In this document: positions 12,541 through 62,187 of the stretch, in pieces
Layout of the letters: each line of letters starts with the position of its first letter
Position numbering within the stretch: position 1 is the first letter of the stretch
NCBI RefSeq assembly: GCF_003033925.1
Contig: NZ_CP028365.1
Span: 1,984,001 to 2,048,000, forward strand
DNA: 64,000 bases
Origin: Tannerella serpentiformis
GTDB taxonomy: Bacteria > Bacteroidota > Bacteroidia > Bacteroidales > Tannerellaceae
Direction of reading: 5' to 3'
The notes under the pieces: generated by a model
Database searches by the model: none
Told to the model about the DNA's origin: nothing
Seen by the model: only the letters and a program-made list of their open reading frames with translations
Program-made: the position numbers and the translations under genes

Positions 12541-12875
12541 AGCTATTTAGCCGTCGCGAGGCTTTCAGAGATGCTCTCTGCAGGCCTTTTTCTTACATCG
12601 AACTCCGCAGCTCTCCAGTTCACTCTCCCCTATGCGTTTGACCTCTGCTAACTGATGGAGAGCACTGGAGAGCTATGGCTTTTGACACGGCTTCCTTGAC
12701 TGAAAAGCACGTCGTTTGGCACTAAAATGGGCTATGGAAACAGAATCTTGTCGAGTTTGGGTCGCTTTTAATAAGTGGAACAAGCCTCACTTCAGGAATA
12801 TGCGACGTCCCCATTGTTGATGGTTTCCGTCGTAATCATTTGCTTTGCGAGAGCAATTTTCATAGACAAACCATC

Positions 12876-15800: not shown

Positions 15801-17876
15801 GGGCGTGAGATCAGTGTGGCTGACGGTGCTGCGGAGGTCGCGGTGAAGCGTTTCCCTGCCAATATGGTCAACGCAGGTAAGCTGTTGACCTTGAAAGATC
15901 CATCGGGCACGGTGATCCATAGCTACACCTACCCGAAAGCCAAGGCTGGCCGATCCATCGAGCGCGGAGAAGGCGACAAGTGGCATCTCTCGTCCGATCC
16001 GCGTGGCGGCACACCGGGCGAGGAAAACTCGGAGGGTGCGCCTGACAAACCGGATGAACCAGAGAAGGAAAAATCTTCCCCCGGCGATGTGCTGATCAAT
16101 GAAGTGATGGCTGACCCACGCGGACTGACGAAACTCCCTGCTACGGAGTACGTGGAGCTGCATAACACGACCGATCACGAGATTAACCTCGAAGGCTGGG
16201 CCTTTGTGTATGACAAGACGTCTATTCCACTCCCCGACACTGAACTCCCGGCTGGCGGTTATGCCGTGTTGTATAAAGCAGGGCGTGAGATTAGTGTAGC
16301 TGACGGTGCAGCGGAAGTCGCGGTGAAGCGTTTCCCGGCTAACATGATTAACGCGGGTAAGCCATTGGCATTGAAAGATCCATCAGGCACGGTGATCCAT
16401 AGCTACACCTATCCGAAAGCCAAGGCAGGCCGATCCATCGAGCGCGGTGAAGGCGACAAGTGGCATCTCTCGTTCGATCCGCGCGGCGGTACACCGGGCG
16501 AGGAAAACTCAGAGGGTGCGCCGGACAAGCCAGACAAACCCGAGAAGGAAAAGTCTTCCCCCGGCGATGTGCTGATCAATGAAGTGATGGCTGACCCACG
16601 TGGACTGACGAAGCTCCCAGCTACGGAGTACGTGGAGCTGCATAACACGACCGATCACGAGATAAACCTCGAAGGCTGGGCCTTTGTGTATGACAAGACA
16701 TCTATCCCGCTCCCCGACGCTGAACTCCCTGCTGGTGGTTATGCTGTGTTGTATAAAGCGGGGCGTGAGATCAGTGTGGCTGACGGTGCTGCGGAGGTAG
16801 CGGTGAGGCGTTTCCCGGCCAATATGATCAACACGGGCAAGCCGTTGGCCTTGAAAGATCCATCGGGTACGGTGATCCATAGCTACACTTACCCGAAAGC
16901 CAAGGCTGGCCGATCCATCGAGCGCGGTGAAGGCGACAAGTGGCATCTCTCGTCCGATCCGCGTGGCGGTACACCGGGCGAGGAGAACTCGGAGGGTGCA
17001 CCTGACAAACCCGACGAACCGGATGAACCCAATAAGCCGAATGAACCAGACGCTACGGGGCAAGTGGAGCCGAGGGAGATCATCCTCAACGAAATACTCT
17101 TCGACCCGCAGCCGCGCGGCAGCGAGTATATCGAGCTATACAACCGATCCGACCGGACGCTGTCAACCCATGGACTGGCCATCGCACTCCGCAAAAGTGA
17201 TGGACACCTTGGCACGCGTCACTCACTCACCTCGCTTGCCACGACCCTCGCACCGGGTGACTACCTCGTTCTAACGTCCGATCCCAACGGAGTGACCAGC
17301 CTCATCCGTACGCCTGCCCTCGACGCCATCCGCCGATTCAAGCTGCCTGCGCTGAATAATCAGGGGGCTACGATCGTCCTGCTCCGGACGGCCGACAGCA
17401 CCGTGGTCGATGAGGTGACCTATTCCGCGAAGTGGCATAGTAGCGCAGTTAAAATCCGGAGGGGTGTGGCGCTGGAGCGTATCAGCCCCGATGGCAGCTC
17501 GCAAGAGGCCGCTAACTGGACATCGGCCAGCTCTGAAACGGGTTATGGTACGCCGGGCTATAAGAACTCACAGTCCGGAACGTCGTCACAAATCGAGGAG
17601 GGTGCGACGATCAGTGAGCCGGAATACAATGCCTCCACACGTGACTACCTGATTCGCTACCGGATGGACAAGCCCGACTATCGATGTCAGATGGCAGTCT
17701 ATTCGAGCAATGGCCAAAAGATGGCTGTAATCGCCAACAACCAGCTGCTGACCTCCGAAGGCGAGATCCGCTGGGATGGTGCAGGCCTCTCTCCTGGCGT
17801 CTATGTCTTCTATGTCGAGCTCTATCATCCCGACGGCAGCAGCCAGCATATCAGGAAGCCCCTTCTGGTACATTAA
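12876..17876 (+). CDS. Large secreted protein with nine lamin-tail domains
   Basis: About 1666 residues from the ATG at 12876 (a TTG 36 bp upstream is in frame but less likely). A long N-terminal region ends in a hydrophobic segment (LLFTLLLLLFISYLCASA) acting as export signal. Then come eight lamin-tail domains (each GDIVINEVMA or GDVLINEVMA ... YVELYNTTDH ... PRGGTPGEENS), joined by Pro/Asp/Lys-rich linkers. A ninth, divergent LTD (REIILNEILFDP) is followed by a FlgD-Ig-like end (RWDGAGLSPGVYVFYVELY). LTDs in bacterial surface proteins are linked to nucleic-acid or ligand binding and to nucleases, but no nuclease domain is present. Stands alone, with a repeat array and a terminator behind it. 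Confidence 0.85.
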   Translation: MKTIETTKDQREQTAGTSLPLSFETRRTARQSHTHRFNSGKLLTETLHSQRPLLFTLLLLLFISYLCASATPAPAHPGDIVINEVMASPKGAKGLPETDYVELYNTTDHTISLKGWSFIYDGTVIRLPDVPLAANRYAVLYRKGKSLPLNKKVLGLGFSNFPLNMSDEGKQLALKDPSGTVIHSYTYPKAEAGRSIERSEGDKWHLSTDPRGGTPGEENSVAPSVPTPKPDDPATSPDTPSAPPSSPSDTVKSGDIVINEVMASPKGAKGLPETDYVELYNTTDHTISLKGWSFIYDGTVIRLPDVPLAANRYAVLYRKGKSLPLNKKVLGLGFSNFPLNMSDEGKQLTLKDSSGTVIHSYTYPKAKAGRSIERGEGDKWHLSSDPRGGTPGEENSVAPSVPTPKPDDPATSPDTPSAPPSSPSDTVKSGDIVINEVMASPKGAKGLPETDYVELYNTTDHTISLKGWSFIYDGTVIRLPDVPLAANRYAVLYRKGKSLPLNKKVLGLGFSNFPLNMSDEGKQLTLKDSSGTVIHSYTYPKAKAGRSIERSEGDKWHLSSDPRGGTPGEENSEGAPDKPDKPEREKSSPGDVLINEVMADPHGLTKLPATEYVELHNTTDHEINLEGWAFVYDKTSIPLPDAELPAGGYAVLYKAGREISVADGAAEVAVKRFPANMINAGKPLALKDPSGTVIHSYTYPKAKAGRSIERGEGDTWHLSTDPRGGTPGEENSEDTLDKPDKPEKEKSSPGDVLINEVMADSRGLTKLPATEYVELHNTTDHEINLEGWTFVYDKTSIPLPDAELPAGGYAVLYKAGREISVADGAAEVAVKRFPANMINAGKPLALKDPSGTVIHSYAYPKAKAGRSIERGEGDTWHLSSDPRGGTPGEENSEGVPDKPDKPEKEKSSPGDVLINEVMADPHGLTKLPATEYVELHNTTDHEINLEGWTFVYDKTSIPLPDVELSAGGYAVLYKAGREISVADGAAEVAVKRFPANMVNAGKLLTLKDPSGTVIHSYTYPKAKAGRSIERGEGDKWHLSSDPRGGTPGEENSEGAPDKPDEPEKEKSSPGDVLINEVMADPRGLTKLPATEYVELHNTTDHEINLEGWAFVYDKTSIPLPDTELPAGGYAVLYKAGREISVADGAAEVAVKRFPANMINAGKPLALKDPSGTVIHSYTYPKAKAGRSIERGEGDKWHLSFDPRGGTPGEENSEGAPDKPDKPEKEKSSPGDVLINEVMADPRGLTKLPATEYVELHNTTDHEINLEGWAFVYDKTSIPLPDAELPAGGYAVLYKAGREISVADGAAEVAVRRFPANMINTGKPLALKDPSGTVIHSYTYPKAKAGRSIERGEGDKWHLSSDPRGGTPGEENSEGAPDKPDEPDEPNKPNEPDATGQVEPREIILNEILFDPQPRGSEYIELYNRSDRTLSTHGLAIALRKSDGHLGTRHSLTSLATTLAPGDYLVLTSDPNGVTSLIRTPALDAIRRFKLPALNNQGATIVLLRTADSTVVDEVTYSAKWHSSAVKIRRGVALERISPDGSSQEAANWTSASSETGYGTPGYKNSQSGTSSQIEEGATISEPEYNASTRDYLIRYRMDKPDYRCQMAVYSSNGQKMAVIANNQLLTSEGEIRWDGAGLSPGVYVFYVELYHPDGSSQHIRKPLLVH
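13107..14642 (+). repeat. Three 528-bp tandem repeats (type A lamin-tail domains)
   Basis: Copies begin at 13107, 13635 and 14163, each exactly 528 bp from the last and nearly identical, even at synonymous sites. Each encodes one LTD plus a linker; the first two linkers are Pro/Ser-rich and identical. Confidence 0.95.
14643..17042 (+). repeat. Five 480-bp tandem repeats (type B lamin-tail domains)
   Basis: Copies begin at 14643, 15123, 15603, 16083 and 16563, exactly 480 bp apart. Type B differs from type A in the middle of the domain (REISVADGAAEVAVKRFPAN instead of KSLPLNKKVLGLGFSNFPLN) and has a shorter charged linker. Confidence 0.95.
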
Positions 17877-35439: not shown

Positions 35440-36232
35440 CTAAAAAACGGAGCCGCGCAGGGTGGCGGCGTGCTAAAGGCGGCGCCGTTTTGACCGCGCA
35501 GCTAAGAATGGTGAAAAACGGGCCGCCTTTTTCACCGCGCACCCAAGAACTGTGAAAAACAGACCGCCTTTTTCACCGCGCAGGCAAGAACTGTGAAAAA
35601 CGGGCCGCCTTTTTGACCGCGCAGCGAGGAATGGTGCTAACGGCGGCGCCTTTTTGACCGCGCAGCGAGGAATGGTGCTAACGGCGGCGCCTTTTTGACC
35701 GCGCACCCCGTCGGGCTCCCAAACGGGCCGCCTTTTGCAGGCCAACACCCCGTCGGGCTTCAAAACAGGCCGCCTTTTGTAGGCCAACACCCCGTCGGCC
35801 TCCAAAACGGGCCGCCTTTTGTAGGCCAACACCCCGTCGGCCTTCAAAACAGACCGCCTTTTGCAGGCCAACACCCCGTCGGGCTCCAAAACGGGCCGCC
35901 TTTTGCAGGCCAACACCCCGTCGGGCCCCCAAACGGGCCGCCTTTTGCATGCCAACACCCCGTCGGGCCCCAAAACGGGCCGCCTTTTGCAGGCCAACAC
36001 CCCGTCGGGCCCCAAAACAGGCCGCCTTTTGCAGGCCAACACCCCGTCGGGCTCCAAAACAGGCCGCCTTTTATAGGCCAACACCCCGTCGGGCTCCAAA
36101 ACGGGCCGCCTTTTGCAGGCCAACACCCCGTCGGCCTCGAAAACAGTCCGCCTTTTGCAGGCCAACACCCCGTAGGTATCCAAAACAGGCCGCCTTTTGC
36201 GGGCCAACACCCCGTCGGCCTTCAAAAAGCAG
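35440..36232. repeat. Intergenic array R4a: about six 41-bp B units, then thirteen 42-bp A units
   Basis: A units (first CCCCG at 35706, then every 42 bp to 36210) read CCCCGTCGGnnnCCAAAA, then CGGGCCGCCTTTTG and a short linker. The preceding units have the same AAAACGGGCCGCCTTTT core with a linker of the form ACCGCGCAnnnAAGAAnnGTG. Both parts carry the core in the same orientation. Reading frames through it (14-residue periodic) look non-coding: they lack start signals and several frames are open at once. Confidence 0.93.
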
Positions 36233-36253
36233 TCTCTCTGCCTCGGTTCGGTT

Positions 36254-50175: not shown

Positions 50176-50205
50176 AAGTCTTGCTGTTTTGTTCTTTATA
50201 GGCGA

Positions 50206-50213
50206 CAAAAGTA
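50206..50213 (-). promoter_or_regulatory. -7 promoter box (TACTTTTG) of the acyl-CoA synthetase gene
   Basis: Exact consensus match, within a 20-bp sequence (50195-50214) repeated exactly at 50531-50550. Confidence 0.65.
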
Positions 50214-50306
50214 GGCCGAATCAGAGAGGGCGGGCGGGGGAGGATTATAGGAGCGTATGCGCGTGCACCCTTGTATAGTCTGCTGAGAGGAGAAGTCAAT
50301 AGGGGC

Positions 50307-50519
50307 CTATATTCCAATGATCCGTCTCATGCCTGCTTCTATCCGCGTGATGGCTTCATCCATTGAGAGGGCACGATCGAAGTCTTCCGGAAGTCGATCC
50401 TCACTCGGAGCGACGAAAGATTCATGGTGCCTACTGCGGACGAGGGCCACTTCCTGCTTTGTGCGATCTACGGACCTCGTCTTGTTGTCGCGTAATTCCG
50501 TTGAACTGATTGTATGCAT
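50307..50519 (-). CDS. Phd/YefM-like antitoxin without a toxin partner
   Basis: 70 residues: MHTISSTELRDNKTRSVDRT and a C-terminal acidic helix (EDFDRALSMDEAITRIE). This is the prevent-host-death family of small DNA-binding antitoxins. No toxin-sized frame of the RelE/YoeB type follows: only about 100 bp separate it from the next promoter. Orphan; may act as a regulator, or the toxin was lost. Confidence 0.7.
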   Translation of the reverse strand: MHTISSTELRDNKTRSVDRTKQEVALVRSRHHESFVAPSEDRLPEDFDRALSMDEAITRIEAGMRRIIGI

Positions 50520-50541
50520 TGTATCTGTCGTTTATAGGCGA

Positions 50542-50549
50542 CAAAAGTA
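50542..50549 (-). promoter_or_regulatory. -7 promoter box (TACTTTTG) of the phd-like gene, at the edge of array R4b
   Basis: Exact consensus match 23 bp upstream of the ATG. The array starts at the next base but one. A TTTTG (minus strand of 50571-50575), 21 bp further up and inside the first repeat unit, could serve as the -33 element. Confidence 0.6.
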
Positions 50550-50550
50550 G

Positions 50551-51287
50551 TCCAACACCCCGTCGGCCCCCAAAACGGGCCGCCTTTTGCAGTCCAACAC
50601 CCCGTCGGGGTCAAAAAGGCGCCGCCTTTTATAGTCCAACGCCCCGTCGGCCCCCAAAACAGACCGCCTTTCATAGGCCAACACCCCGTCGGCCCCCAAA
50701 ACGGGCCGCCTTTTGCAGGCCAACACCCCGTCGGTGCCCAAAACAGGCCGCCTTTTGCAGGCCAACATCCCGTCGGCCCCCAAAACGCGCCGCCTTTTGC
50801 AGGCCTACACCCCGTCGGCCCCCAAAACGCGCCGCCTTTTGCAGGCCTACACCCTGTCGGTGCCCAAAACGGGCCGCCTTTTATAGGCCAACACCCCGTC
50901 GGCCCCCAAAACGGGCCACCTTTTGTAGGCCAACACCCCGTCGACCCCCCAAACGCGCCGCCTTTTGCAGGCCAACACCCCGTCGAGGTCAAAAAGGCGC
51001 CACGTTTTGCATTGTTCCGGGCTGCGCGGCGAAAAAGGCGGCCTGTTTTTCACCGTTCCGGGCTGCGCGGCGAAAAAGGCGGTCTGTTTTTCACCGTTCC
51101 GGACTGCGCGGCGAAAAAGGCGGCCTGTTTTTCATCGTTCCGGGGTGCGCGGTGAAAAAGGCGGTCTGTTTTTCACCGTTCCGGGCTGCGCGGTGAAAAT
51201 GGCGGCCCGTTTTTCACAGTTCTTGGGTGCGCGGCGAAAAAGGTGGCCTGTTTTTCACAGTTCTTGGGTGCGCGGTCAAAAACGGGG
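50551..51287. repeat. Intergenic array R4b: eleven 42-bp A units, junction, about seven 41-bp B units
   Basis: A units have CCCC near 50558 and then every 42 bp to 50978. After a junction (TCGAGGTCAAAAAGGCGCC at about 50982) the B units run with the core inverted (GGCGGCCTGTTTTTCACCG). The same order and the same junction occur at R4c (60.2 kb). Confidence 0.95.
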
Positions 51288-51331
51288 CCGCCGTTCACAC
51301 CGCCTAACTCTTGGGGCGATGCAAACGGCGG
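51288..51331. terminator. 44-bp hairpin, identical to 61012-61055
   Basis: CCGCCGTT and AACGGCGG form the outer stem, CACACCGCC..GGCGATGCA an inner one, loop about ten bases. Lies 33 bp downstream of the symporter stop (51365, minus strand) and before the array. Function as terminator is inferred from position; no long T run. Confidence 0.6.
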
Positions 51332-51364
51332 ACGACTTGAGGTATATCCGATCGGCCGATGGGC

Positions 51365-52546
51365 TTACAGGGCCTCGGCCTCGAGGTCGGGGACGTGGCG
51401 CTTGGCATAGGTGTCGGTGATGAGCGAGAGGGCGCCGTCGCCGGTGATGTTGCAGGCCGTGCCGAAGCCGTCTTGCAGGGCGAAGATGGCGATGAGGAGC
51501 GCCGTGCCTGAGTCGCCGAAACCGAGCACGGAGGTGACGATGCCGAGCGAGGCGAGCACCGTGCCACCCGGTACGCCGGGCGCACCTACGGCGAAGATGC
51601 CCAGGAGGACGATGAAGAGCGTCAGCGTGGCGGGGTCTGGCAGGTGGCCGTAGAGCAGCTGCGAGACGACGCAGACGAGAAACGTCTCCGTAAAGACCGA
51701 ACCGCAGAGGTGGATGTTGGCAAAGAGCGGAATGGAGAAGTCGGTCACCTTACGGCTGAGGATGGGGCTGCGGCGGATGCAGTCGAGCGAGACGCCGAGG
51801 GTGGCTGCGGACGACATGGTGCCCCAGGCCGTGAGGTAAGCCGGGCCGTAATAGCGGAGGACGTTCCAGCCGTTCTTCCGGGAGTAGGCCGAGGCGGTGC
51901 CGTAGAGCAGGGCGAGCCAGAGGTAATGGCAGACGATGACGATGGCCAGGACGGGCAGGAAGATGCCGAGGCGGGCCACGTCGCCCTCGTAAGATAGGGC
52001 CGCGAAGTTGGCCGCGATATAGACGGGCAGCACGGGCATGAGCACACGGCGAACGAGCAGGAGGACAATGTCGCGGAACTGCAGCAGTAGGCGTGTGACG
52101 TCCACTGCGCTGGTGCGAAGGGCGCCAAAGCCAAGGAAGACGGCCAGTAGCAGGGCCGACATGACGCTCATCACGGGTGGTATGTCGACACGGAAGATGA
52201 GTTCAGGCAGCTGGCGCAGACCTTCTTCAGCCGGCCGTATGTTCAGCAGCGGGATGGTCTGATAACCCACCAGCGCGGCAAACGTGGCGGCGCCAACGGA
52301 CGAGACGTAGGCCAAGAGGAAGGCGAAGAAGATCAGTCGTGTGGCACCTTGGCGCAGGGCCGTGATAGAAGGAGCCACGAAACCGATGACGATCAGGGGG
52401 ACGAGGAAGAAGATGATCTGCCCCGTGATTTGCTTGATGGAAAGGATGGTGCGGATGCCCTCCTCCCCGACGAGGCGCCCCGTGAAGAGGCCCACAACGA
52501 CGGCGATGAGGAGTATGACGATGGAGTTGGATAGGATTTTTTTCAT
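51365..52546 (-). CDS. Dicarboxylate/amino-acid:cation symporter (DAACS family)
   Basis: 393 residues from MKKILSNSIVILLIAVVVG. Hydrophobic helices throughout; re-entrant hairpins with TMSSAATLGVS and GVPGGTVLASLG, and a transmembrane segment with LQDGFGTACNITGDG (the NxxGD-type sodium/substrate site). Inner-membrane sodium- or proton-coupled uptake of dicarboxylates or acidic/neutral amino acids. Last gene of the operon starting with the binding protein at 59.9 kb, 48 bp after the URO-D-like gene. Its last about 12 residues (RHVPDLEAEAL) are homologous to those of the Fic protein at 61.1 kb. Confidence 0.88.
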   Translation of the reverse strand: MKKILSNSIVILLIAVVVGLFTGRLVGEEGIRTILSIKQITGQIIFFLVPLIVIGFVAPSITALRQGATRLIFFAFLLAYVSSVGAATFAALVGYQTIPLLNIRPAEEGLRQLPELIFRVDIPPVMSVMSALLLAVFLGFGALRTSAVDVTRLLLQFRDIVLLLVRRVLMPVLPVYIAANFAALSYEGDVARLGIFLPVLAIVIVCHYLWLALLYGTASAYSRKNGWNVLRYYGPAYLTAWGTMSSAATLGVSLDCIRRSPILSRKVTDFSIPLFANIHLCGSVFTETFLVCVVSQLLYGHLPDPATLTLFIVLLGIFAVGAPGVPGGTVLASLGIVTSVLGFGDSGTALLIAIFALQDGFGTACNITGDGALSLITDTYAKRHVPDLEAEAL

Positions 52547-52594
52547 TGAATGATGGCTTCTGAGGGGTGAATGGTTAGACATGTTGAGGGGAAA

Positions 52595-53683
52595 TTATTG
52601 GGCCGCGGACGCCTTGTGGGTCAGTCGCCAGGTGTGGATGTAGTCCACGAGGCGGCGCACCTTCTCGGGGTCGGAATCGTTGGGCAGGGAGTCGTCGGCG
52701 CCGAAGATGAAGTTGGCGGGCGCCTCACGCAGGATGGCGTCCACTTCGGCCTTGGCCTCCTCCAGCGTGCCTTTGTACAGGGCGCCCCAACGCTGCATGC
52801 CGCCGAGGACGGGGCGACGGAAACGCTCCGAGATCTGCCGAAGGGTGAGGGTGCTGTCCTTGAAGTTGTGCATCGGGGGATTGATGATGCTGCCGGGATA
52901 GTCGAGGTAATCGTCGAAGGTGGCGGGGGTGATATGGCCGCCCGATTCGCAGATGTGGAGGATGTTGAAAGGGGCCACCTCAGCGGCTACGTCGGCCAAT
53001 TGGCGGTCGTAGGGCTTGAGAATGCGACGGAAGATGTCGCCTGCGAACTCCTCCAGATCGTCGCCTTGGCTGGAGATGTAGAAGCCATCGGCTCCGGCGC
53101 GTCGGGCCTCGCGGATGTAGTGCACAAGGCTCTGGGTGACGGCCTCCAGAGCCGGACGGATGGCCTCGGGATCGCGGCGGATCAGCTCGACCATAGCCGC
53201 GCGCCCCGCCTTATCGCTCGAGAGGGGGACACCGGCCGCCTGGATCAGCACGCGCAGCGGAGAGAAGACGGTGGGGATGATCAGCGCCTCGCTGCCCAGC
53301 TCGCGCTTCAGCTCGCGGATGACGAGCAGCTGTTCTTCCCACACCTCGGGGCTGAAGGGCCGGATGCGCTTCCAGTCGGCCGGCGTACGGACGGCATGCG
53401 AGGGGGGGAAGTATTCGTATTTGACGTTCACGAAGTCCACATGGGTGCGGCGGAACCAGTCCACGTGGGCCCGGACGGCGTCGAGGCCTTCGTGCTCCTT
53501 GAAGTGGATGTTGAAGAAGACGGGAACGTAGTCGTTCGGCCTGCTTTGATCGAGCGTCTGGAGCATCAGCTCGCGCTTGTTGTAGTCCGTGGGGGTCTGT
53601 GCCCCGGCGCGTAGGGCCAAGAGGGCGGTGGCGGCGGCCGCAAGGAGGGCCGCCCGGAGGAGGTGGGTAGTTGTCTTGCTCAT
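52595..53683 (-). CDS. Exported uroporphyrinogen-decarboxylase-like protein
   Basis: 362 residues. A signal peptide (LLRAALLAAAATALLALRAGAQ) precedes a URO-D-type TIM barrel: FFNIHFKEHEGLDAVRAHVD, GADGFYISSQGDDLEEF, ICESGGHI and GGMQRWGALYKGT-type segments. URO-D itself is cytosolic; the superfamily also includes corrinoid and thiol methyltransferases. A periplasmic version is unusual. Position in a SusCD operon with a binding protein and symporter suggests it acts on the imported compound. Reaction unknown. Confidence 0.75.
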   Translation of the reverse strand: MSKTTTHLLRAALLAAAATALLALRAGAQTPTDYNKRELMLQTLDQSRPNDYVPVFFNIHFKEHEGLDAVRAHVDWFRRTHVDFVNVKYEYFPPSHAVRTPADWKRIRPFSPEVWEEQLLVIRELKRELGSEALIIPTVFSPLRVLIQAAGVPLSSDKAGRAAMVELIRRDPEAIRPALEAVTQSLVHYIREARRAGADGFYISSQGDDLEEFAGDIFRRILKPYDRQLADVAAEVAPFNILHICESGGHITPATFDDYLDYPGSIINPPMHNFKDSTLTLRQISERFRRPVLGGMQRWGALYKGTLEEAKAEVDAILREAPANFIFGADDSLPNDSDPEKVRRLVDYIHTWRLTHKASAAQ

Positions 53684-53722
53684 TGTCTTGTCGAGTATAA
53701 GGGTGAGTAAAGAAGAGGGGGA

Positions 53723-55315
53723 CTATTCCCAGCCTTTGGCCGTGTAGGGATCGCCGGAGGTCTGTCCGTCGTAGCCCCAGTTCTGCTTCAGGGCGGGATT
53801 GAGGGCGATCTGCTCGGAGGGGATGGGCAGGAAGTAATGCTTGGGCGAGATGTTCTGGTGCTTGAGGTCCGTGGCCGGCACCTTCTCTCGGATCGTCTTG
53901 ACGAGGATATGCCAGCGCTTGAGGTCGAACCAGCGCGTACCCTCCATGATGAATTCCTTGAGCTGCTCCGTGCGTACGGCCTGTCGGAAGGCTTCTTGGC
54001 TGAGGCCCGCAAGCTCCGTTTTCGATCCGTCGGCGGGTGCGCGCTGGATCTGGGCGTAAGAGTCGTAGAAGGCACGCCGACGCACCTCGTTGATGGCCTT
54101 ATAAGCCGTCTCGGTGGGGCCGTTCAGCTCGTTCTCGGCCTCGGCCTTGATGAGCAGTACCTCGGCATAGCGCAGGACGGAGGAGCTGGTGTTCTGCCCC
54201 GAGATGTAGGGGGCGGAATACTTGGCCATCTCTATCGTGTCGATGTATTTGCGGAAGCGGATGCGGTCGAAGTCGAACCAGTGGCCGGTGAAGGGGTCGT
54301 AGAGGCGCTTGGTGACGGAGGCCTCGCGGCGCTGATCGTTGGCGTCGAAAAGGTCGTAGAGCGAGTTGTCGAGCGCGGCGATGACGGGCTGCTTATCGTT
54401 CGTGAAGCCGGTGGAGAGCACACAGCGACCGATGACGTTGCGGTTGATGCCGAACTTATGCTCCACGGTGAAGATCAGTTCGGCGTTGCCCAGCTTCTTA
54501 TCCACCGACCAGTTGTCGCAATAGCGATCCAGCAGCTTGTATTTCCCCTCCACCTTCGAGGCATACGCTACGGCCTGACCGAAGAGCTCCCGCTGGTGAG
54601 CCTGGGAATACTCCGTATCGCTCTGCGCCCAGACCAGGTGCACCTTAGCCAGCAAGGCCGTTGCGGCACCTGCTGACGCTACGCTCGGCAGCGACGAATA
54701 GCCTGCGGGGATGCCCTCGGCGGCCTTCAGGTCGGCCACGATCTGCTCATAGACTTTGTCTGTTGCTGTGCGGGGCTGGCCCTCCCCCTCGCCGTCGTGA
54801 AGCACGAGCGGCACGTCGCCGTAATAGCGCACCAAGTCGAAGTAATACAGCGCCCGGAGGAACTTGGCCTGCCCCACGATGGCGGCGCGGACACGATCCG
54901 AGATGGCCGTGTTGGCCTCGGCTTTATCGATGAGTACGTTGGCGCGATTGATGCCCGTGTAGTGCACCAACCAGGTGGAGACGACGAAGGTGTTGGTAGG
55001 CGTGATGGCGAAGTTGCCGATCTCGGCGATGTCCGGGCTGTTGGCGGTGCCGCGGCGGGCATATTCGCTTTGCAGATCGTTGAAGAAGATCATCTCGGTG
55101 TTGTAGATGCCGTACATCTCGCCGGCCAGATCGTTGTCCGAGAGGATCTGATAGACGCCGTAGAGGGCGGCTTGCAGGTCGGCCTCGGTCTGATAGAAGT
55201 CGTTCTTTTCAATCGAGCTGAGCGGCGTCTGATCCAGATCGGTGCAGGCGCTCAGCAGCGGAGCCGACAGCGCGGCTGCGAGCAGGTATAGGGTAGTCTT
55301 CTTATTCATCTTCAT
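53723..55315 (-). CDS. susD: SusD/RagB-like surface nutrient-binding lipoprotein
   Basis: About 530 residues from MKMNKKTTLYLLAAALSA. Lipobox LLSAC, then TDLDQTPLSSIEKNDFY, the usual SusD start, with TPR-like helical core (FLRALYYFDLVRYYGDVPLV, EVLLIKAEAENELNG) and a C-terminal SusD domain (EFIMEGTRWFDLKRWHIL). Caps the SusC transporter at the cell surface. Separated from susC not by the usual few bases but by a 500-bp repeat array (R6). Confidence 0.93.
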   Translation of the reverse strand: MKMNKKTTLYLLAAALSAPLLSACTDLDQTPLSSIEKNDFYQTEADLQAALYGVYQILSDNDLAGEMYGIYNTEMIFFNDLQSEYARRGTANSPDIAEIGNFAITPTNTFVVSTWLVHYTGINRANVLIDKAEANTAISDRVRAAIVGQAKFLRALYYFDLVRYYGDVPLVLHDGEGEGQPRTATDKVYEQIVADLKAAEGIPAGYSSLPSVASAGAATALLAKVHLVWAQSDTEYSQAHQRELFGQAVAYASKVEGKYKLLDRYCDNWSVDKKLGNAELIFTVEHKFGINRNVIGRCVLSTGFTNDKQPVIAALDNSLYDLFDANDQRREASVTKRLYDPFTGHWFDFDRIRFRKYIDTIEMAKYSAPYISGQNTSSSVLRYAEVLLIKAEAENELNGPTETAYKAINEVRRRAFYDSYAQIQRAPADGSKTELAGLSQEAFRQAVRTEQLKEFIMEGTRWFDLKRWHILVKTIREKVPATDLKHQNISPKHYFLPIPSEQIALNPALKQNWGYDGQTSGDPYTAKGWE

Positions 55316-55380
55316 AGGGAGGGGTGAGAAATAGTTTGGAGTGGTAGTTATCGTCCGTTTGGGGGATGTCATTCTCGCGT

Positions 55381-55880
55381 TCAAGCGACTTTCTGGCTCA
55401 CTTTGGCGCGAGAGCGGCCTCGTCAAGCGACTTTTTGACGCCGCTGCATGCCAGCGGGCCCGTCAAGCAACTTTTTGACGCCGCTGCGTGCCAGCGGGCC
55501 CGTCAAGCGACTTTTTGGCGCCGCTGCGTGCCAGCGGCTCCGTCAAGCGACTTTTTGGCGTCGCTGCGTGCCAGCGGCCCCGTCAAGCGACTTTTTGGCG
55601 CCGCTGCGTGCCAGCGGCCTCGTCAAGCGACTTTTTGGCGTCGCTGCGTGCCAGCGGCCCCGTCAAGCAACTTTTTGACGCCGCTGCGTGCCAGCGGAGC
55701 CGTCAAGCGACTTTTTGACGCCGCTGCGTGCCAGCGGAGCCGTCAAGCGACTTTTTGACGCCGCTGCGTGCCAGCGGCCCCGTCAAGCGACTTTTTGGCG
55801 CCGCTGCGTGCCAGCGGCCTCGTCAAGCGACTTTTTGGTGTCGCTGGGAGCCAGCAGGGCCCCCCGAGCGACTTTTTGAG
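55381..55880. repeat. Intercistronic array R6: 40-bp unit, about twelve copies, between susC and susD
   Basis: The motif CGTCAAGCGACTTTTTG recurs at 55421 and then every 40 bp to 55821, with degenerate copies at each end. Each unit contains the hairpin CCGCTG-CGTGC-CAGCGG. On the plus strand this hairpin is followed by a T run; genes here are on the minus strand. The frames through it are not convincing genes. Confidence 0.95.
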
Positions 55881-55902
55881 TGAATGAATGGCGGCGGGGG
55901 GC

Positions 55903-58900
55903 TTATAAAGTCAGCTGTAGCCCCACCTGCACGGTCTTGGCTGTGGGATAAGTGCCCATGTCGACGCCTTGATAGAGTGCGCTGTGCTCATCCATGCCGT
56001 TGCGCGAAGCCTCGGGGTCATAACCCGAATAGCGGGTCAGGGTGACGAAGTTCTGGAGCGAGAGGAAGAGGCGGATCTGCGCATCTTTCGTTACCTGTCG
56101 GAGGGGGAGGGTGTAGCCCACCTGCACGTTCTTGAGGCGCAGGTAGCTGGCGTCCTCCACGTAGCGACTGTCAGAGACGATCGTCAGGTCGTCGCTGGCG
56201 CGCTGTATGCGGTCCGAAGGGTTCGTCTCCGTCCAGCGGTCGGCCACGATGGCCAGGGAGTTATAGTACGTCGATCCCTTTGTCAGACGCGTAGCCAAGC
56301 CGTTGAAGAGCTTGTTGCCGTAGCTGCCTGCCAAGGCGAGGAAAAGGTCCACACGTCCCCACGTGAGAGTGGTGTTGAAGCCGTAAGTAAAGAGTGGCTG
56401 CGAGTTGCCGAGCACGGTCTGATCGGCCGTGTTCACCACATTGTCGCCGTTTACATCCTCATAGATCGGGTTGCCCGGGCGCAGGGGGCTGATGGACTGG
56501 CGGGGCAGGGCGGAGACGTCCGTCTCTTTCTGCACGAGGCCCTTGAACTTGTATCCGTAGAGCGTGCCCAACGGCTCGCCCACCTTGACGATCACGGGCG
56601 AGATATAGCCCAGCGTGGCGCCGCTGAAGTTGGGGACGATGGACGAGGCCGACCCGAGGCTGGTCACCTCGTTGCGGTTGTGAGCGATGTTGAAGTCGGC
56701 AGTCCAGCGCACCTGCTTGTTGCTGATGAGTGTGCCACCGATAGCCAGCTCCACGCCGCGGTTAGTCACCGAGCCGACGTTGCGCAGCGAGGTCTCAAAG
56801 CCCGAGACTTGCTCCACGGGCACCATCAGCAGCAGGTCGGACGTGCGCTTGTAGTAGGCGTCCAGCACCACCGTGAGTCGGTTGCGAAAGAAGCCCGTGC
56901 TCAGGCCCACGTTATAGCTGGCCGTACGCTCCCACTTCAGGTCGGGGTTAGCCTTGCTCTGTATGTAATAGGCCAACACTTCGCGCCCGCCAGAGTAGCC
57001 CGGCGTAGGGGTCGGCGCTACGTTGGCCACGAACTGATAATCGCCAATCTCTTGATTGCCTACCACACCGGCCGAGAGGCGCACCTGCAAATGATCCACA
57101 GCGCGGCCGAGGCGGATGAACTTCTCCCGACCCACATTCCACGACAAGCCTGCGGAGGGGAAGAGCCCCCATTTGTTGTTCTCTGCGAAGCGGCTGGAGC
57201 CGTCGGCACGCAGGGTGAGGGAGAGGTTGTAGCGACCGTCGTAGGAGTAGTTGGCGCGACCGAGCCATGAGCGCAGTGTGCTGATATAGGCACGACTGGT
57301 GGCGGAGAAAAGGTCGGAGCCAGCCGCGAGGTTGTTGTACCCCGTCACATCGTTGGCGAAGTTGCGGACGGTGGTGGCATAACCACTGCGATCCGTACGC
57401 TGGGCGGTGTATCCGGCCAGGAGCGCCACGTGATGCAGACGGTTGAACTCGCGGTCGTAGTTGGCCGTGAACTCCGCCTGCCAAACGTTGGCCAGCGTAG
57501 ATCCGACCGAGGCCACGCCCTTATACTCCAGCCCGGTGGTGGTGTAGGAGGGCGAATAGTTGCTCTCGCGGGTGTTGGAGAGGTCGGCTCCGGCTTGCAC
57601 CTTCAGCTTGAGGTGCTTCACCGGCTCCCATTCGGCAAAGGCCGAGGCGATGAGGCGGGAGTTGGCGATACGGGTCTTGGCGTTGTATAGGTCCGAGATG
57701 GGGTTACCCACCACTTGCTCCCCGTTGCGGGTGTAGAGGTCTTGACTGATGGGGCTGGGGGCATAGTTGAAATGGCCCGCGGCGTCGTAGATCGGGTGCG
57801 TAGGGGCCGAGGTGATCACGGCCATCCAGGTGTTTGAGGCCCACTTAGCGGCCTGCCCCGCTGTGCCGCGATCCACGTTGCGCAACCCATTCAGCGCGCT
57901 ATAAGCGCCCGAGGCATTGACACCGATCACGAAGTTGGGCCACATGGTGCGCTCATAGTTGATGCGCCCCGCATAGCGCTTCAGGCCCGTGTTGACGATG
58001 ATGCCCTCTTGCCCCTTGTAACTGCCCGAGATGGCGTAGCGCGAGTGCTCGTCGCCACCGGCGGCGCTCAGCTGATGCTCCTGGGTGAAGGCCGTGCGAA
58101 GGGCCTCGTCCTGCCAGTCGTAGCTGTGCGTGGGTGAGGGTAGGGGCGCTTTGGGGTTGATCTCGTTGTAGAGGGCTGTGAACTGTTCGGCGTTGAGGAA
58201 CTCCAGTCGGCGGGCGGCGGTGCTCCATCCGGCCGTACCGGCATATCTGAGGTTGTTGCGCCCCTTGGTGCCCTTCTTGGTGGTGATCATGATCACACCG
58301 TTGGCGCCGCGTGTGCCATAGATGGCTGTGGCGCTGACGTCCTTCAGCACCTCGATGCTCTCGATGTCCGAGGGATTGAGGAAGGACAGCGGATCGAGCG
58401 AGGCATCCGCACCCGAAGCACCCGTGCGAGTGGCCTCGGGATCGTTGTAGACGATGAAACCGTCGATCACATAGAGCGGCTCATTGCTGCCCGTGATGGA
58501 ATTGCCTCCGCGGATGCGGATGTTGCTCGAGGCGCCCGGTTGACCCGACGTGGTGGTGACGTTCAGACCCGCCACGGCTCCGGCCAGGGCGTTCTCCACC
58601 GTGGTGGGCGACTGCTTGAGTAGGTCCTTGTTCACGGTCGAGATGGCGCTGGTCAGCTCGCGACGCTTCTGCGTGCTGTAGCCCACCACGACCACCTCCT
58701 GCAACACGTCCACCGCCTCATTGAGCGGGATGACGATCGGCTCCGAGGCGTCGTAGACGTCCACTTGCAGCTCTCTGTAGCCCACGAAGCTGACCTTGAT
58801 AACGGCTGGAAGGTTGCGCACTGTGACGGAGAAATTCCCATCCAAATCCGTCAAGACTCCCGAATGCTCGTCCACAACGGCGACGGTGGCCCCAATGATC

Positions 58901-59013
58901 GGCTCGTCCGTCTGAGAGTCCAGCACGCGTCCCTCCAGCTTAGTTTGTGCCCCTGCCTGACCCACGATGAGTAGCAGCAGGGCGATGATGTAATGCGTAG
59001 TTTTCACCTTCAT
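55903..59013 (-). CDS. susC: SusC/RagA-like TonB-dependent transporter
   Basis: 1036 residues. Signal peptide (IIALLLLIVGQAGAQ), carboxypeptidase-like domain (LEGRVLDSQTDEPIIGATVAV), TonB box-like VLQEVVVVGYSTQKRRELTSAIS, plug with SIEVLKDVSATAIYGTRGANG and IRIRGGNSITG, and a 22-strand barrel ending in KTVQVGLQLTL. Imports an oligomer or other ligand held by SusD. 20 bp downstream of the binding-protein gene; ligand unknown. Confidence 0.95.
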   Translation of the reverse strand: MKVKTTHYIIALLLLIVGQAGAQTKLEGRVLDSQTDEPIIGATVAVVDEHSGVLTDLDGNFSVTVRNLPAVIKVSFVGYRELQVDVYDASEPIVIPLNEAVDVLQEVVVVGYSTQKRRELTSAISTVNKDLLKQSPTTVENALAGAVAGLNVTTTSGQPGASSNIRIRGGNSITGSNEPLYVIDGFIVYNDPEATRTGASGADASLDPLSFLNPSDIESIEVLKDVSATAIYGTRGANGVIMITTKKGTKGRNNLRYAGTAGWSTAARRLEFLNAEQFTALYNEINPKAPLPSPTHSYDWQDEALRTAFTQEHQLSAAGGDEHSRYAISGSYKGQEGIIVNTGLKRYAGRINYERTMWPNFVIGVNASGAYSALNGLRNVDRGTAGQAAKWASNTWMAVITSAPTHPIYDAAGHFNYAPSPISQDLYTRNGEQVVGNPISDLYNAKTRIANSRLIASAFAEWEPVKHLKLKVQAGADLSNTRESNYSPSYTTTGLEYKGVASVGSTLANVWQAEFTANYDREFNRLHHVALLAGYTAQRTDRSGYATTVRNFANDVTGYNNLAAGSDLFSATSRAYISTLRSWLGRANYSYDGRYNLSLTLRADGSSRFAENNKWGLFPSAGLSWNVGREKFIRLGRAVDHLQVRLSAGVVGNQEIGDYQFVANVAPTPTPGYSGGREVLAYYIQSKANPDLKWERTASYNVGLSTGFFRNRLTVVLDAYYKRTSDLLLMVPVEQVSGFETSLRNVGSVTNRGVELAIGGTLISNKQVRWTADFNIAHNRNEVTSLGSASSIVPNFSGATLGYISPVIVKVGEPLGTLYGYKFKGLVQKETDVSALPRQSISPLRPGNPIYEDVNGDNVVNTADQTVLGNSQPLFTYGFNTTLTWGRVDLFLALAGSYGNKLFNGLATRLTKGSTYYNSLAIVADRWTETNPSDRIQRASDDLTIVSDSRYVEDASYLRLKNVQVGYTLPLRQVTKDAQIRLFLSLQNFVTLTRYSGYDPEASRNGMDEHSALYQGVDMGTYPTAKTVQVGLQLTL

Positions 59014-59033
59014 GCTTTGTCCTCCTCATCGTT

Positions 59034-59963
59034 TTATCGGTCGCTCAGCAGCCTCGAGAGGCGCTTCTGCTCCTTCTGCTCCGTTTTCTTGTCGATGGTC
59101 AGGAAGCCCGACGCATGGTTGTATTGCTGTCCCTCGCTGACTACCCACTGCAGGAAGTCCCTGACGGGCGCCTTGTCGCGATAGACAAAGCCGATCATTT
59201 GCAGCGGGATCAGGTCGATCTCTGCGTCCTCCAGCAACCGCAACGTCTCGTCCAGATTGCCACTGCGCAGGATCTGCTCCTGATCCTTCTTCAGGTTCAG
59301 CGGCAGGACAGAGAGCTCCGGCTTCAACTTGCGGCTTTGCAGGTCGAAGAGGTAAGCCGTCGTGTTGAACGTGATGCCCGTGCGATCCTTTCCGATGGCC
59401 GTCAACAGATGGATGTCGTCGCCGGCGATGCGTTTGCCACGGATCTGCGACGGGCGGTATCCGAAGTGCGAGGCAAAGGCCTGCGCACCCGATGTGCGAC
59501 CCATCGTCGAATAGACCGTCAGGCCGTCACGCAGGGCGTCCTTCTTCTTGCCCTCTTCCACCTCTTGCACGACATCGTTTTGGAAGAATAGGCGCTTCAG
59601 TTCCTTCTTGTCGAATCGGCGGCGATTGATTTGCTCATAGAGCGGGTTGCCCGTCGTCGTGACCGGCAGCAGGGCGTAGCGCCCCACGTAGGCCACGTTT
59701 CCTTCGGCCTCTTTGTCGGCCTCGGTCGAGGCTTGCGTTAGCGTCAGGTCGGCCTCGCCCTTGCCATCATTCACCACGCGGATCTGCACCTCCGGGTGTT
59801 GCTCCGTATATTTCTTAATCCAAGTCTCTACCAGCCCGCTGCAAGCCTTGGCTGTGCTTACGGTGATCACTTCGCTCGGTGTATCCGATGCGCGCAGCGA
59901 CGTGGAGGCTGCGATCAGCAGCGTCGCCACCAGCAGTTGCTTGAGTGTAAATCTTGCCTTCAT
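59034..59963 (-). CDS. Periplasmic binding protein (PstS/PBP2-like)
   Basis: 309 residues from MKARFTLKQLLVATLLIAA with a signal peptide ending SLRAS. PBP-like two-lobe pattern: VITVSTAKACSGLVETWIKKYTEQHP, then DLTLTQAS, GLTVYSTMGRTSGAQAFASH and GITFNTTAYL. Similar to phosphate-type substrate-binding proteins, but no ABC transporter genes accompany it. It starts the operon with susC, susD, the URO-D-like gene and the symporter; so it may feed the symporter or sense ligand (inference). Confidence 0.8.
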   Translation of the reverse strand: MKARFTLKQLLVATLLIAASTSLRASDTPSEVITVSTAKACSGLVETWIKKYTEQHPEVQIRVVNDGKGEADLTLTQASTEADKEAEGNVAYVGRYALLPVTTTGNPLYEQINRRRFDKKELKRLFFQNDVVQEVEEGKKKDALRDGLTVYSTMGRTSGAQAFASHFGYRPSQIRGKRIAGDDIHLLTAIGKDRTGITFNTTAYLFDLQSRKLKPELSVLPLNLKKDQEQILRSGNLDETLRLLEDAEIDLIPLQMIGFVYRDKAPVRDFLQWVVSEGQQYNHASGFLTIDKKTEQKEQKRLSRLLSDR

Positions 59964-60030
59964 TGTTTCTGTTACTCCTATTCTTTTGGGGGTTCTCAAT
60001 CGTTGTTTCTATCTCGTTTTTTTGACGGTG

Positions 60031-60038
60031 CAAAGGTG
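60031..60038 (-). promoter_or_regulatory. Weak -7 box (CACCTTTG) of the SusCD uptake operon
   Basis: Six of eight consensus positions; about 68 bp upstream of the binding-protein ATG. A weak box would fit an activator-dependent promoter with the dyads at 60061-60101. Confidence 0.45.
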
Positions 60039-60060
60039 TGGGCACCTCAACCCCTGCACA

Positions 60061-60101
60061 ATCCCACGCGTGTGGTATTTTCCATCCCACAACCGTGGTA
60101 T
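60061..60101. promoter_or_regulatory. Two tandem operator-like dyads, ATCCCAC-n4-GTGGTAT
   Basis: Copies at 60061-60078 and 60084-60101, 23 bp apart, each an imperfect inverted repeat. Located upstream of the SusCD operon promoter, at the place for an activator. Confidence 0.6.
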
Positions 60102-60155
60102 AAAGCCGATTCTTCCCCCATTTTACCCTTGGAGCACGCCTCATTTTCCTCTTTC

Positions 60156-61010
60156 CACACCCCGTCGGCCTCCCAAACGGGCCGCCTTTTGTAGGCCAAC
60201 ACCCCGTCGACCCTCAAAACGGGCCGCCTTTTGCAGGCCAACACCCCGTCGGCCTCCCAAACGGGCCGCCTTTTATAGTCCAACACCCCGTCGGTGCCCC
60301 AAAGGCGCCGCCTTTTGCAGTCCAACACCCCGTCGACCCCCCAAACAGGCCGCCTTTTATAGTCCAACACCCCGTCGGTGCCCAAAACGCGCCGCCTTTT
60401 GCAGGCCAACACCCCGTCGACCCCCAAAACGGGCCGCCTTTTGCAGTCCAACACCCCGTCGGCCCTCAAAACAGGCCGCCTTTTGCAGGCCAACACCCCG
60501 TCGGCCCCCCAAACAGGCCGCCTTTTATAGGCCAACACCCCGTCGAGGTCAAAAAGACGCCACGTTTTGCATTGTTCCGGACTGCGCGGTGAAAAAGGCG
60601 GTCTGTTTTTCACCGTTCCGGGCTGCGCGGCGAAAAAGGCGGCCTGTTTTTCACAGTTCTTGGGTGCGCGGTGAAAAAGGCGGTCTGTTTTTCACCGTTC
60701 CAGGCTGCGCGGCGAAAAAGGCGGCCTGTTTTTTACCCTTCCGGGCTGCGCGGCGAAAAAGGCGGTCTGTTTTTTACCCTTCCGGGCTGCGCGGCGAAAA
60801 AGGCGGTCTGTTTTTCACCGTTCCGGGCTGCGCGGTCAAAAAGGCGGTCTGTTTTTCACCGTTCCGGACTGCGCGGTGAAAAAGGCGGTCTGTTTTTCAC
60901 AGTTCTTGGGTGCGCGGTGAAAAAGGCGGTCTGTTTTTCACAGTTCTTGGGTGCGCGGTGAAAAAGGCGGTCTGTTTTTCACCATTCTTAGCTGCGCGGT
61001 CAAAAACAGA
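60156..61010. repeat. Intergenic array R4c: ten 42-bp A units, junction, about ten 41-bp B units
   Basis: Same architecture as R4b: A units (CCCC near 60160, every 42 bp to 60538), the junction TCGAGGTCAAAAAGACGCC, then B units with the inverted core. Unit numbers differ from R4b, so arrays have expanded or contracted independently. Confidence 0.95.
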
Positions 61011-61011
61011 G

Positions 61012-61055
61012 CCGCCGTTCACACCGCCTAACTCTTGGGGCGATGCAAACGGCGG
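61012..61055. terminator. 44-bp hairpin, identical to 51288-51331
   Basis: 44 of 44 bases match the hairpin at R4b. Sits 31 bp downstream of the Fic stop (61087, minus strand). Confidence 0.6.
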
Positions 61056-61086
61056 TCTGCCTGAGGGTATGTCCGATGAGGAGGGC

Positions 61087-62187
61087 CTACAAGGCCTCAG
61101 TCTCGAGGCTGTAGCTGATGTGGCGCGTGGATCGATCCTCGCGGAGGATGCCTATTGATACCAGATCTGCGATGTCGGCCTCTGCCTCGGTGCGGGAACA
61201 CTTGGCCAGCTTGGCCCATTTGGCGACGGTGAGCTTGCCTTCGAGACCGTCAAACAGTCGGCTGATGAGCAGGCGTTGTCGCTCGTTCATCGCCATAGTT
61301 CGATGCGCATGGAAGAAGTGATGCTTATGGAAGGCCGTGGAGATCCGCTCCAATACGGCCTCGATCGTTTCGCTTAGGCAGGTGAGGAACCACTGGAGCC
61401 AATCGGTAATCTCGCCGTCGCCGTGCTGGGTGCGTTCGAGCGCGTCGTAGTAGTCCCTTCGGTGCTGCATGATGCTGGACGACATGCTGTAGAAGCGCCG
61501 CGCATGGCCTTCAGCGCGCGACAGGAGCAGGTCGGTGATGGCGCGGGCGATGCGTCCGTTGCCGTCGTCGAAGGGGTGGATGGAGACGAACCAAAGGTGG
61601 GCGATGGCCGCCTTGAGCACGCCGTCTTCACGCTCATTGGAGGCATTGATCCAGGCCAGGAAACGCGCCATCTCGGTGGGCAATCGGTCCGGGGCGGGAG
61701 CCATGTAATGCACGCGCTCACGCCCCATTGGGCCGGACACGACCTGCATCTGGCCCGTGCGATAACGCGCCACTTCGATCCGATACGGCCCACTGTATCC
61801 GGTGGGGAAGAGGGCGGCGTGCCAACCGAAGAGGCGCTCGCGGGTAAGGGGGGCGTCGTAGTGTTGCGTGGCGTCGAGGAGCATTTCCACGACCCCGTCC
61901 ACGTAGCGTGAAGAAGGGATGAGCCCGGCTGTATCGATGCCTAACCGTCGGGCGATGGAGGAGCGCACCTCGGTCAGGTCTAACCGTTCGCCCTCGATGG
62001 CGGAGGAGTGCACGAGCTCGTCGGAGAGGGAGGAGAGCGTCAGGTCGTCCTGCATATCGCGCCACATCGCCCCCGCCAAGGCCGAAAGCTGCGCCTGCCG
62101 GTCGTGTACGTGGCGCAAGGGCATCTCCGTGGCCTCCGTGTCGTAGCGGAAGCGCCACCACTCCTCTCGTTCGTGCAGATAGATCAT
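61087..62187 (-). CDS. Fic-domain AMP-transferase (class II, self-inhibited)
   Basis: 366 residues from MIYLHEREEWWRFRYDTEA. N-terminal helical domain (DUF4172-like), inhibitory helix SSAIEG at 61-66 (the S/TxxxE[G/N] motif, so auto-inhibited), catalytic HPFDDGNGRIAR at 204-215 and a C-terminal winged-helix part (SRTEAEADIADLVSIGIL). Transfers AMP from ATP to target proteins; target unknown. Its start overlaps the stop of the HAD gene (ATGA). C-terminal RHISYSLETEAL resembles the symporter tail at 51.4 kb. Confidence 0.93.
   Translation of the reverse strand: MIYLHEREEWWRFRYDTEATEMPLRHVHDRQAQLSALAGAMWRDMQDDLTLSSLSDELVHSSAIEGERLDLTEVRSSIARRLGIDTAGLIPSSRYVDGVVEMLLDATQHYDAPLTRERLFGWHAALFPTGYSGPYRIEVARYRTGQMQVVSGPMGRERVHYMAPAPDRLPTEMARFLAWINASNEREDGVLKAAIAHLWFVSIHPFDDGNGRIARAITDLLLSRAEGHARRFYSMSSSIMQHRRDYYDALERTQHGDGEITDWLQWFLTCLSETIEAVLERISTAFHKHHFFHAHRTMAMNERQRLLISRLFDGLEGKLTVAKWAKLAKCSRTEAEADIADLVSIGILREDRSTRHISYSLETEAL

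Follow-up and report, generated by a model that had tools for sequence, protein, structure and literature searches.

Two unrelated genes of Tannerella serpentiformis share a minisatellite, a hairpin and their last codons, probably through local copying of a gene end

In a stretch of 64,000 nucleotides of Tannerella serpentiformis (contig NZ_CP028365.1, positions 1,984,001 to 2,048,000; this whole stretch is called the window and all positions below are counted from its first letter) two genes of unrelated function end in front of two tandem arrays of the same build, R4b and R4c. One of them encodes a dicarboxylate symporter (51365-52582, minus strand, PF00375 SDF) and the other a DUF4172/Fic protein (61087-62178, minus strand; the listed open reading frame (ORF) extends to 62589, and the region that has orthologues begins at about 62178). 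Behind both stop codons lie a short untranslated region (UTR), one and the same 44-bp hairpin and then the array, and the collinear likeness of the two loci is unbroken from the A units of the array to the last codons of the genes.

On the plus strand R4b (50554-51331) and R4c (60156-61055) follow a common order of A units, a single A/B junction, B units and the 44-bp end. R4b has 10 A units of 42 bp (50554-50973), the junction unit (50974-51013) and 7 B units of 41 bp (51014-51300), and R4c has 9 A units of 42 bp (60156-60533), the junction unit (60534-60573) and 11 B units of 41 bp (60574-61024), the final B unit being diverged and entering the hairpin in both. With head-to-tail units longer than 9 bp (Tandem Repeats Finder) the R4 arrays are composite minisatellites, and the core of the A unit, AAAACGGGCCGCCTTTT, is found in the B units as the near reverse complement AAAAAGGCGGCCTGTTTTT, so that both the composite order and the inverted core described in an initial annotation of this DNA are borne out by coordinates and units. 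The A/B junctions of R4b (50976-51016) and R4c are identical in 40 of 41 positions, whereas the related arrays R4a (35473-36251) and L055 (1863-3205) have a different A/B boundary, and R4b and R4c are therefore best seen as copies of one another. In L055 the core of the A units is opposite in orientation to that of the R4b A units, indicating that cores invert within a constant A frame. The two arrays share one orientation, with their 44-bp ends 9,724 bp apart, and show no common flank to their left (best local match 12 bp). Their A units differ by a mean of 5.62 mismatches per 42-bp unit between R4b and R4c, compared to 5.78 within R4b and 5.56 within R4c. Compared unit by unit, R4b and R4c reveal no positional order that would date the event behind the two copies.

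The outer ends of the arrays are identical in all 44 bases (51288-51331 and 61012-61055), as the initial annotation had it. Read in the sense direction of either gene (minus strand in both cases), this segment is predicted to form a hairpin with a stem of 17 pairs and a loop of 10 nt (-30.4 kcal/mol); the z-scores of the two folds are -5.8 and -5.2 (52-nt folds). A stable GC-rich hairpin is thus predicted 31-33 nt 3' of both stop codons, as expected for a terminator, and UUUUU begins 5 nt past the stem at both loci, with extra pairs in R4c shortening the gap to the stem. The hairpin is probably the terminator of both genes. Its right arm has 13 bases, ATGCAAACGGCGG, in common with the end of L059, another R4-type array (B-type), which suggests a hairpin assembled from array-edge units that face opposite ways. 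As the flanks are only 77-88% identical, the probability of 44 straight identical bases by chance is about 1e-5 to 4e-3, which makes selection (as a terminator) or a recent conversion likely.

The likeness does not stop at the 44-bp end but covers about 75 bp more, taking in the UTR, the stop codon and the last 12-13 codons. The shared part of the UTR (51332-51364 behind the symporter gene and 61056-61086 behind the Fic gene, both minus strand) is identical at 23 of 30 aligned positions, the alignment having 4 gap columns. Next come the final 12 codons of the symporter gene with their stop, KRHVPDLEAEAL* (51365-51403, minus strand), and the final 13 codons of the Fic gene with theirs, TRHISYSLETEAL* (61087-61128, minus strand), which match in 30 of 39 positions with one 3-nt gap. 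In order to judge this likeness we compared it with a null in which the tails of 38 other ORFs of the window were paired in both orders. The score of the whole tail (27.5) was reached by none of the 1406 pairs (null maximum 13.5), and none reached that of the coding part alone either. Two ORFs lying inside arrays were excluded from this null; when they are included 2 of 1560 pairs score higher, both coming from this artefact pair. Furthermore, a local alignment past the 44 bp was equalled by none of 2000 shuffles (Gumbel p about 5.5e-6). Given its position beside the identical 44 bp we take the likeness between the symporter and Fic tails to be real, and the earlier claim that it runs through the stop codon into two unrelated genes holds on the 1406 null pairs.

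The shared segment exists twice. A search with the 41-bp core of the 44-bp end, allowing up to 3 mismatches, found two copies in the 3.01-Mb genome, and the tail is present at only two of nine R4-type sites, R4b and R4c. The search for further proteins ending in LExEAL, proposed along with that for the hairpin, yielded three genome matches of the pattern with a stop, two being the symporter and Fic genes and the third having an in-frame stop nine codons upstream, so that no further gene was found. Beyond this genome, a 181-bp query of end and tail matched one of 41 genomes of the genus, its own, and none of the 40 congeners, with the other matches in the own genome being B units. Among 393 genomes of the order a 486-bp query from junction to tail likewise matched just one, its own (at most two candidates scored per genome). 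The 201-bp end region had no plasmid match and a 33-bp hairpin stretch had no match in viral contigs.

To which of the two genes the tail originally belonged can be approached through their orthologues. We compared the Fic end with those of 12 distinct loci other than its own, and the symporter end with those of 25 named loci (from 27 picked among 80 listed, the other two falling in a wrong frame), 10 of 11 orthologues from the genus (all but L192) and more distant paralogues. Nine of the 12 Fic orthologues end in YxL plus 1-6 residues (for example GRNVNYTLQE, compared to TRHISYSLE here), and in the other three (L067, L077 and L201) the ends run on differently. The own Fic tail aligns with the orthologue ends through YSLE and thus looks native up to this point, with at most TEAL and the stop codon being extra. 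The end of the symporter is matched by none of the 25 named relatives and none of the 10 genus orthologues, whose ends vary freely after TYxKR. In a hand-chosen set of 8 Fic and 25 symporter orthologue tails, the own symporter tail scores 30 against the own Fic tail (0 of 5000 shuffles as good) and at best 9 against the symporter orthologues. Against the 8 Fic orthologue tails all scores of the symporter tail are negative, whereas the own Fic tail scores 2 to 14 (74 of 5000 shuffles as good). Since the Fic tail fits its orthologues and the symporter tail fits the own Fic tail much better than its own orthologues, Fic is the likelier donor, and by parsimony a copying of the Fic 3' end onto the symporter gene is the most likely direction. 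The initial annotation had suggested that a cassette supplied both tails, which agrees with the symporter, whose tail looks acquired, and not with Fic. It had also named orthologues that lack any array and keep the same tail as a sign that the tails are native and their likeness chance; such a tail is seen in part for Fic and is not seen for the symporter.

From these data we consider it probable that a single old, local and non-reciprocal copying gave the symporter gene a 3' end taken from the Fic gene, hairpin and array included. R4b and R4c would both go back to one ancestral composite minisatellite. The event itself may have been a segmental copy, or a gene conversion that started in an already existing array and ran past its edge. 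The copied part would comprise the Fic 3' end, its hairpin-bearing UTR and the B-junction-A array next to it. At the target, which lies 9.7 kb off and runs the same way, the codons of the symporter from about KRH onward would have been replaced, with a likely breakpoint at CCAnGCGCCAC, a motif present in both genes. The borrowed tail would be tolerable for the symporter as its C-terminus is unconserved among relatives. Later the interiors of the arrays would have been turned over by slippage or exchange, leaving junction and outer edge still recognisable, and the 44-bp hairpin would have been kept identical most likely because it serves as transcription end of both genes.

Several observations speak against this reading and have to be set beside it. 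The UTR part alone is reached by 2 of 1406 null pairs, and when the own genome was searched with the 80-bp Fic flank (61056-61135) the symporter flank was not found up to E=10; as this unanchored search fails, the significance of the tail likeness depends on its collinearity with the identical 44 bp. In their A units R4b and R4c show no greater nearness to each other than to R4a (5.50 and 5.46 mismatches; ten R4a units compared). The symporter orthologue L109 ends in KRHSVD (120 of 2000 shuffles as good), so that KRH may be native to the symporter. The relatives through which the earlier tail of the symporter is judged are distant (about 43-66% identity), none being a near strain or sister species. 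Finally, the hairpin was not listed by a terminator scan, its 10-nt loop and the 5-nt offset of the U-tract being beyond the limits of the scan.

The alternative that survives best, although it appears unlikely to us, is a copying in the reverse direction from the symporter to Fic, or an edge that was converted repeatedly both ways. Conversion between direct repeats at a distance of 9.7 kb can go either way, and the end of L109 would agree with a symporter origin of the tail. Yet the motif R-x-x-x-Y-x-L fits the ends of the Fic orthologues, and it is the symporter tail, not that of Fic, which scores negative against all eight of them.

Somewhat less likely still is an independent insertion, behind each gene, of a mobile cassette consisting of tail codons, stop, hairpin and array and resembling a miniature inverted-repeat transposable element (MITE). 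That the likeness of the loci is confined to a defined right part, with nothing shared on the left flank, and that R4-type arrays occupy nine sites in the genome would agree with this, and with BrickBuilt from Porphyromonas gingivalis a minisatellite within a MITE is described (PMC4596501). A MITE should be present in many dispersed copies, but the 44-bp end and the tail each occur twice and only the A/B arrays themselves are found at nine sites. Terminal inverted repeats, as defined for MITEs in the same report, were not convincing at the outer border, where 164 and 808 of 1000 shuffles were as good; at the hairpin border it was 22 and 200 of 1000 and the two copies disagree. Nor were there target site duplications beyond chance, the longest shared words being 4-5 bp, which 272-767 of 1000 shuffles equalled, with true borders that are uncertain. 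As the Fic tail is in addition native to YSLE, we rejected a mobile element for its too few copies and the lack of convincing inverted ends or target duplications. Thus, from the 'mobile or duplicated' 3' cassette of the initial annotation the duplicated segment remains, and mobility finds no support in two copies 9,724 bp apart.

Very improbable is that only array, junction and hairpin are paralogous and that the likeness of codons and UTR is due to chance or base composition, as the empty unanchored search and the UTR result might suggest; it is rejected by the tests made in place, namely the anchored coding and whole tails and the shuffled local alignments, with the contrary search left on record. 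We give hardly any credence to an EAL tail selected on both proteins as a functional signal (e.g. for degradation or contact) and spread in this way, as the pattern is confined to these two genes of the genome, the proteins are as different in kind as a membrane symporter and a Fic protein, and the orthologues do without it, even if the final three residues agree and the single in-frame 3-nt indel preserves the frame.

The initial annotation knew of no described element acting in this manner, and here it has to be corrected. Small mobile repeats are reported to supply the last codons and stop in the case of the enterobacterial RU elements (Delihas 2007, PMC2759123; review PMC2229807), and Coxiella QMITE2 likewise supplies C-terminal codons and a stop (PMC5896051). 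RU-1, RU-2 and RU-3 resemble the R4 case in that a repeat over the 3' end gives unrelated genes their last codons and stop. In that report (PMC2759123) they are dispersed MITE-like elements of 100-170 bp with many copies, whereas R4 is a two-copy segment with a minisatellite and a tail that seems to be derived from one of its own two genes. QMITE1 and QMITE2 also overlap gene ends and provide EnhC of one Coxiella strain with its last 33 residues, the stop being followed by a strong stem (PMC5896051); they are many-copy MITEs without a minisatellite, and in R4 neither inverted ends nor target duplications are convincing. BrickBuilt is similar to R4 as an intergenic minisatellite with conserved edges ('leader' and 'tail'), many sites, a restricted host range and interiors that expand and contract. 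It is described (PMC4596501) with a 23-nt unit and terminal inverted repeats and reported as always intergenic, in contrast to R4 with its 41/42-bp units of two types and a shared edge that extends into coding sequence. No description of an R4-type array was found among the papers listed in searches of the open-licence literature. The R4 case behaves like a segmental duplication of small size that includes a minisatellite, and we count it among the variants of repeat-linked gene-end acquisition, a class already described. It is a modest one with two copies and one event, for which a mobile cassette is not needed.

What the R4 case would add is a way to change the C-terminus of a protein without a transposon, where either the homology or the unit that is copied comes from the array, and the gene end follows together with a ready terminator. 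It could be imagined that minisatellite edges in this genome act as recombination handles, with intergenic arrays trading terminators and last codons and thereby shuffling the 3' ends of unrelated genes, which we regard as quite improbable at present. A single event is an anecdote, and if sister strains show more exchanges an array-driven shuffling of gene ends becomes testable.

The genome is a single contig of 3,013,500 bases, and the window has a GC content of 56.9% and is rich in intergenic tandem arrays with a unit size of 36-42 bp (Tandem Repeats Finder). The nine R4-type sites of the genome (R4a, R4b, R4c and L054-L059) were grouped by hand from 67 matches of a 186-bp query. At eight of them the neighbouring genes are co-directional and only at L059 are they convergent (crude ORF calls). 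At six of the nine a TAnnTTTG element, which we take to be the Bacteroidetes -7 motif, lies at most 150 bp away on the side of the downstream gene; this 8-mer occurs 23 times in the window on both strands. From these neighbours and elements R4-type arrays appear to sit between the end of one gene and the promoter of the next. The 20-mer TTTATAGGCGACAAAAGTAG has two exact copies (50195-50214 and 50531-50550), each before the start of successive minus-strand genes and the second abutting R4b, where chance would lead to no such pair. As it contains TAnnTTTG, it looks like a duplicated, putative promoter. Behind R4b lies an ORF of 70 amino acids (50310-50519, minus strand) with no Pfam match, and elsewhere in the window an ORF of 1678 amino acids (12840-17876, plus strand) shows nine lamin-tail domain stretches and an internal tandem repeat of 480 bp.

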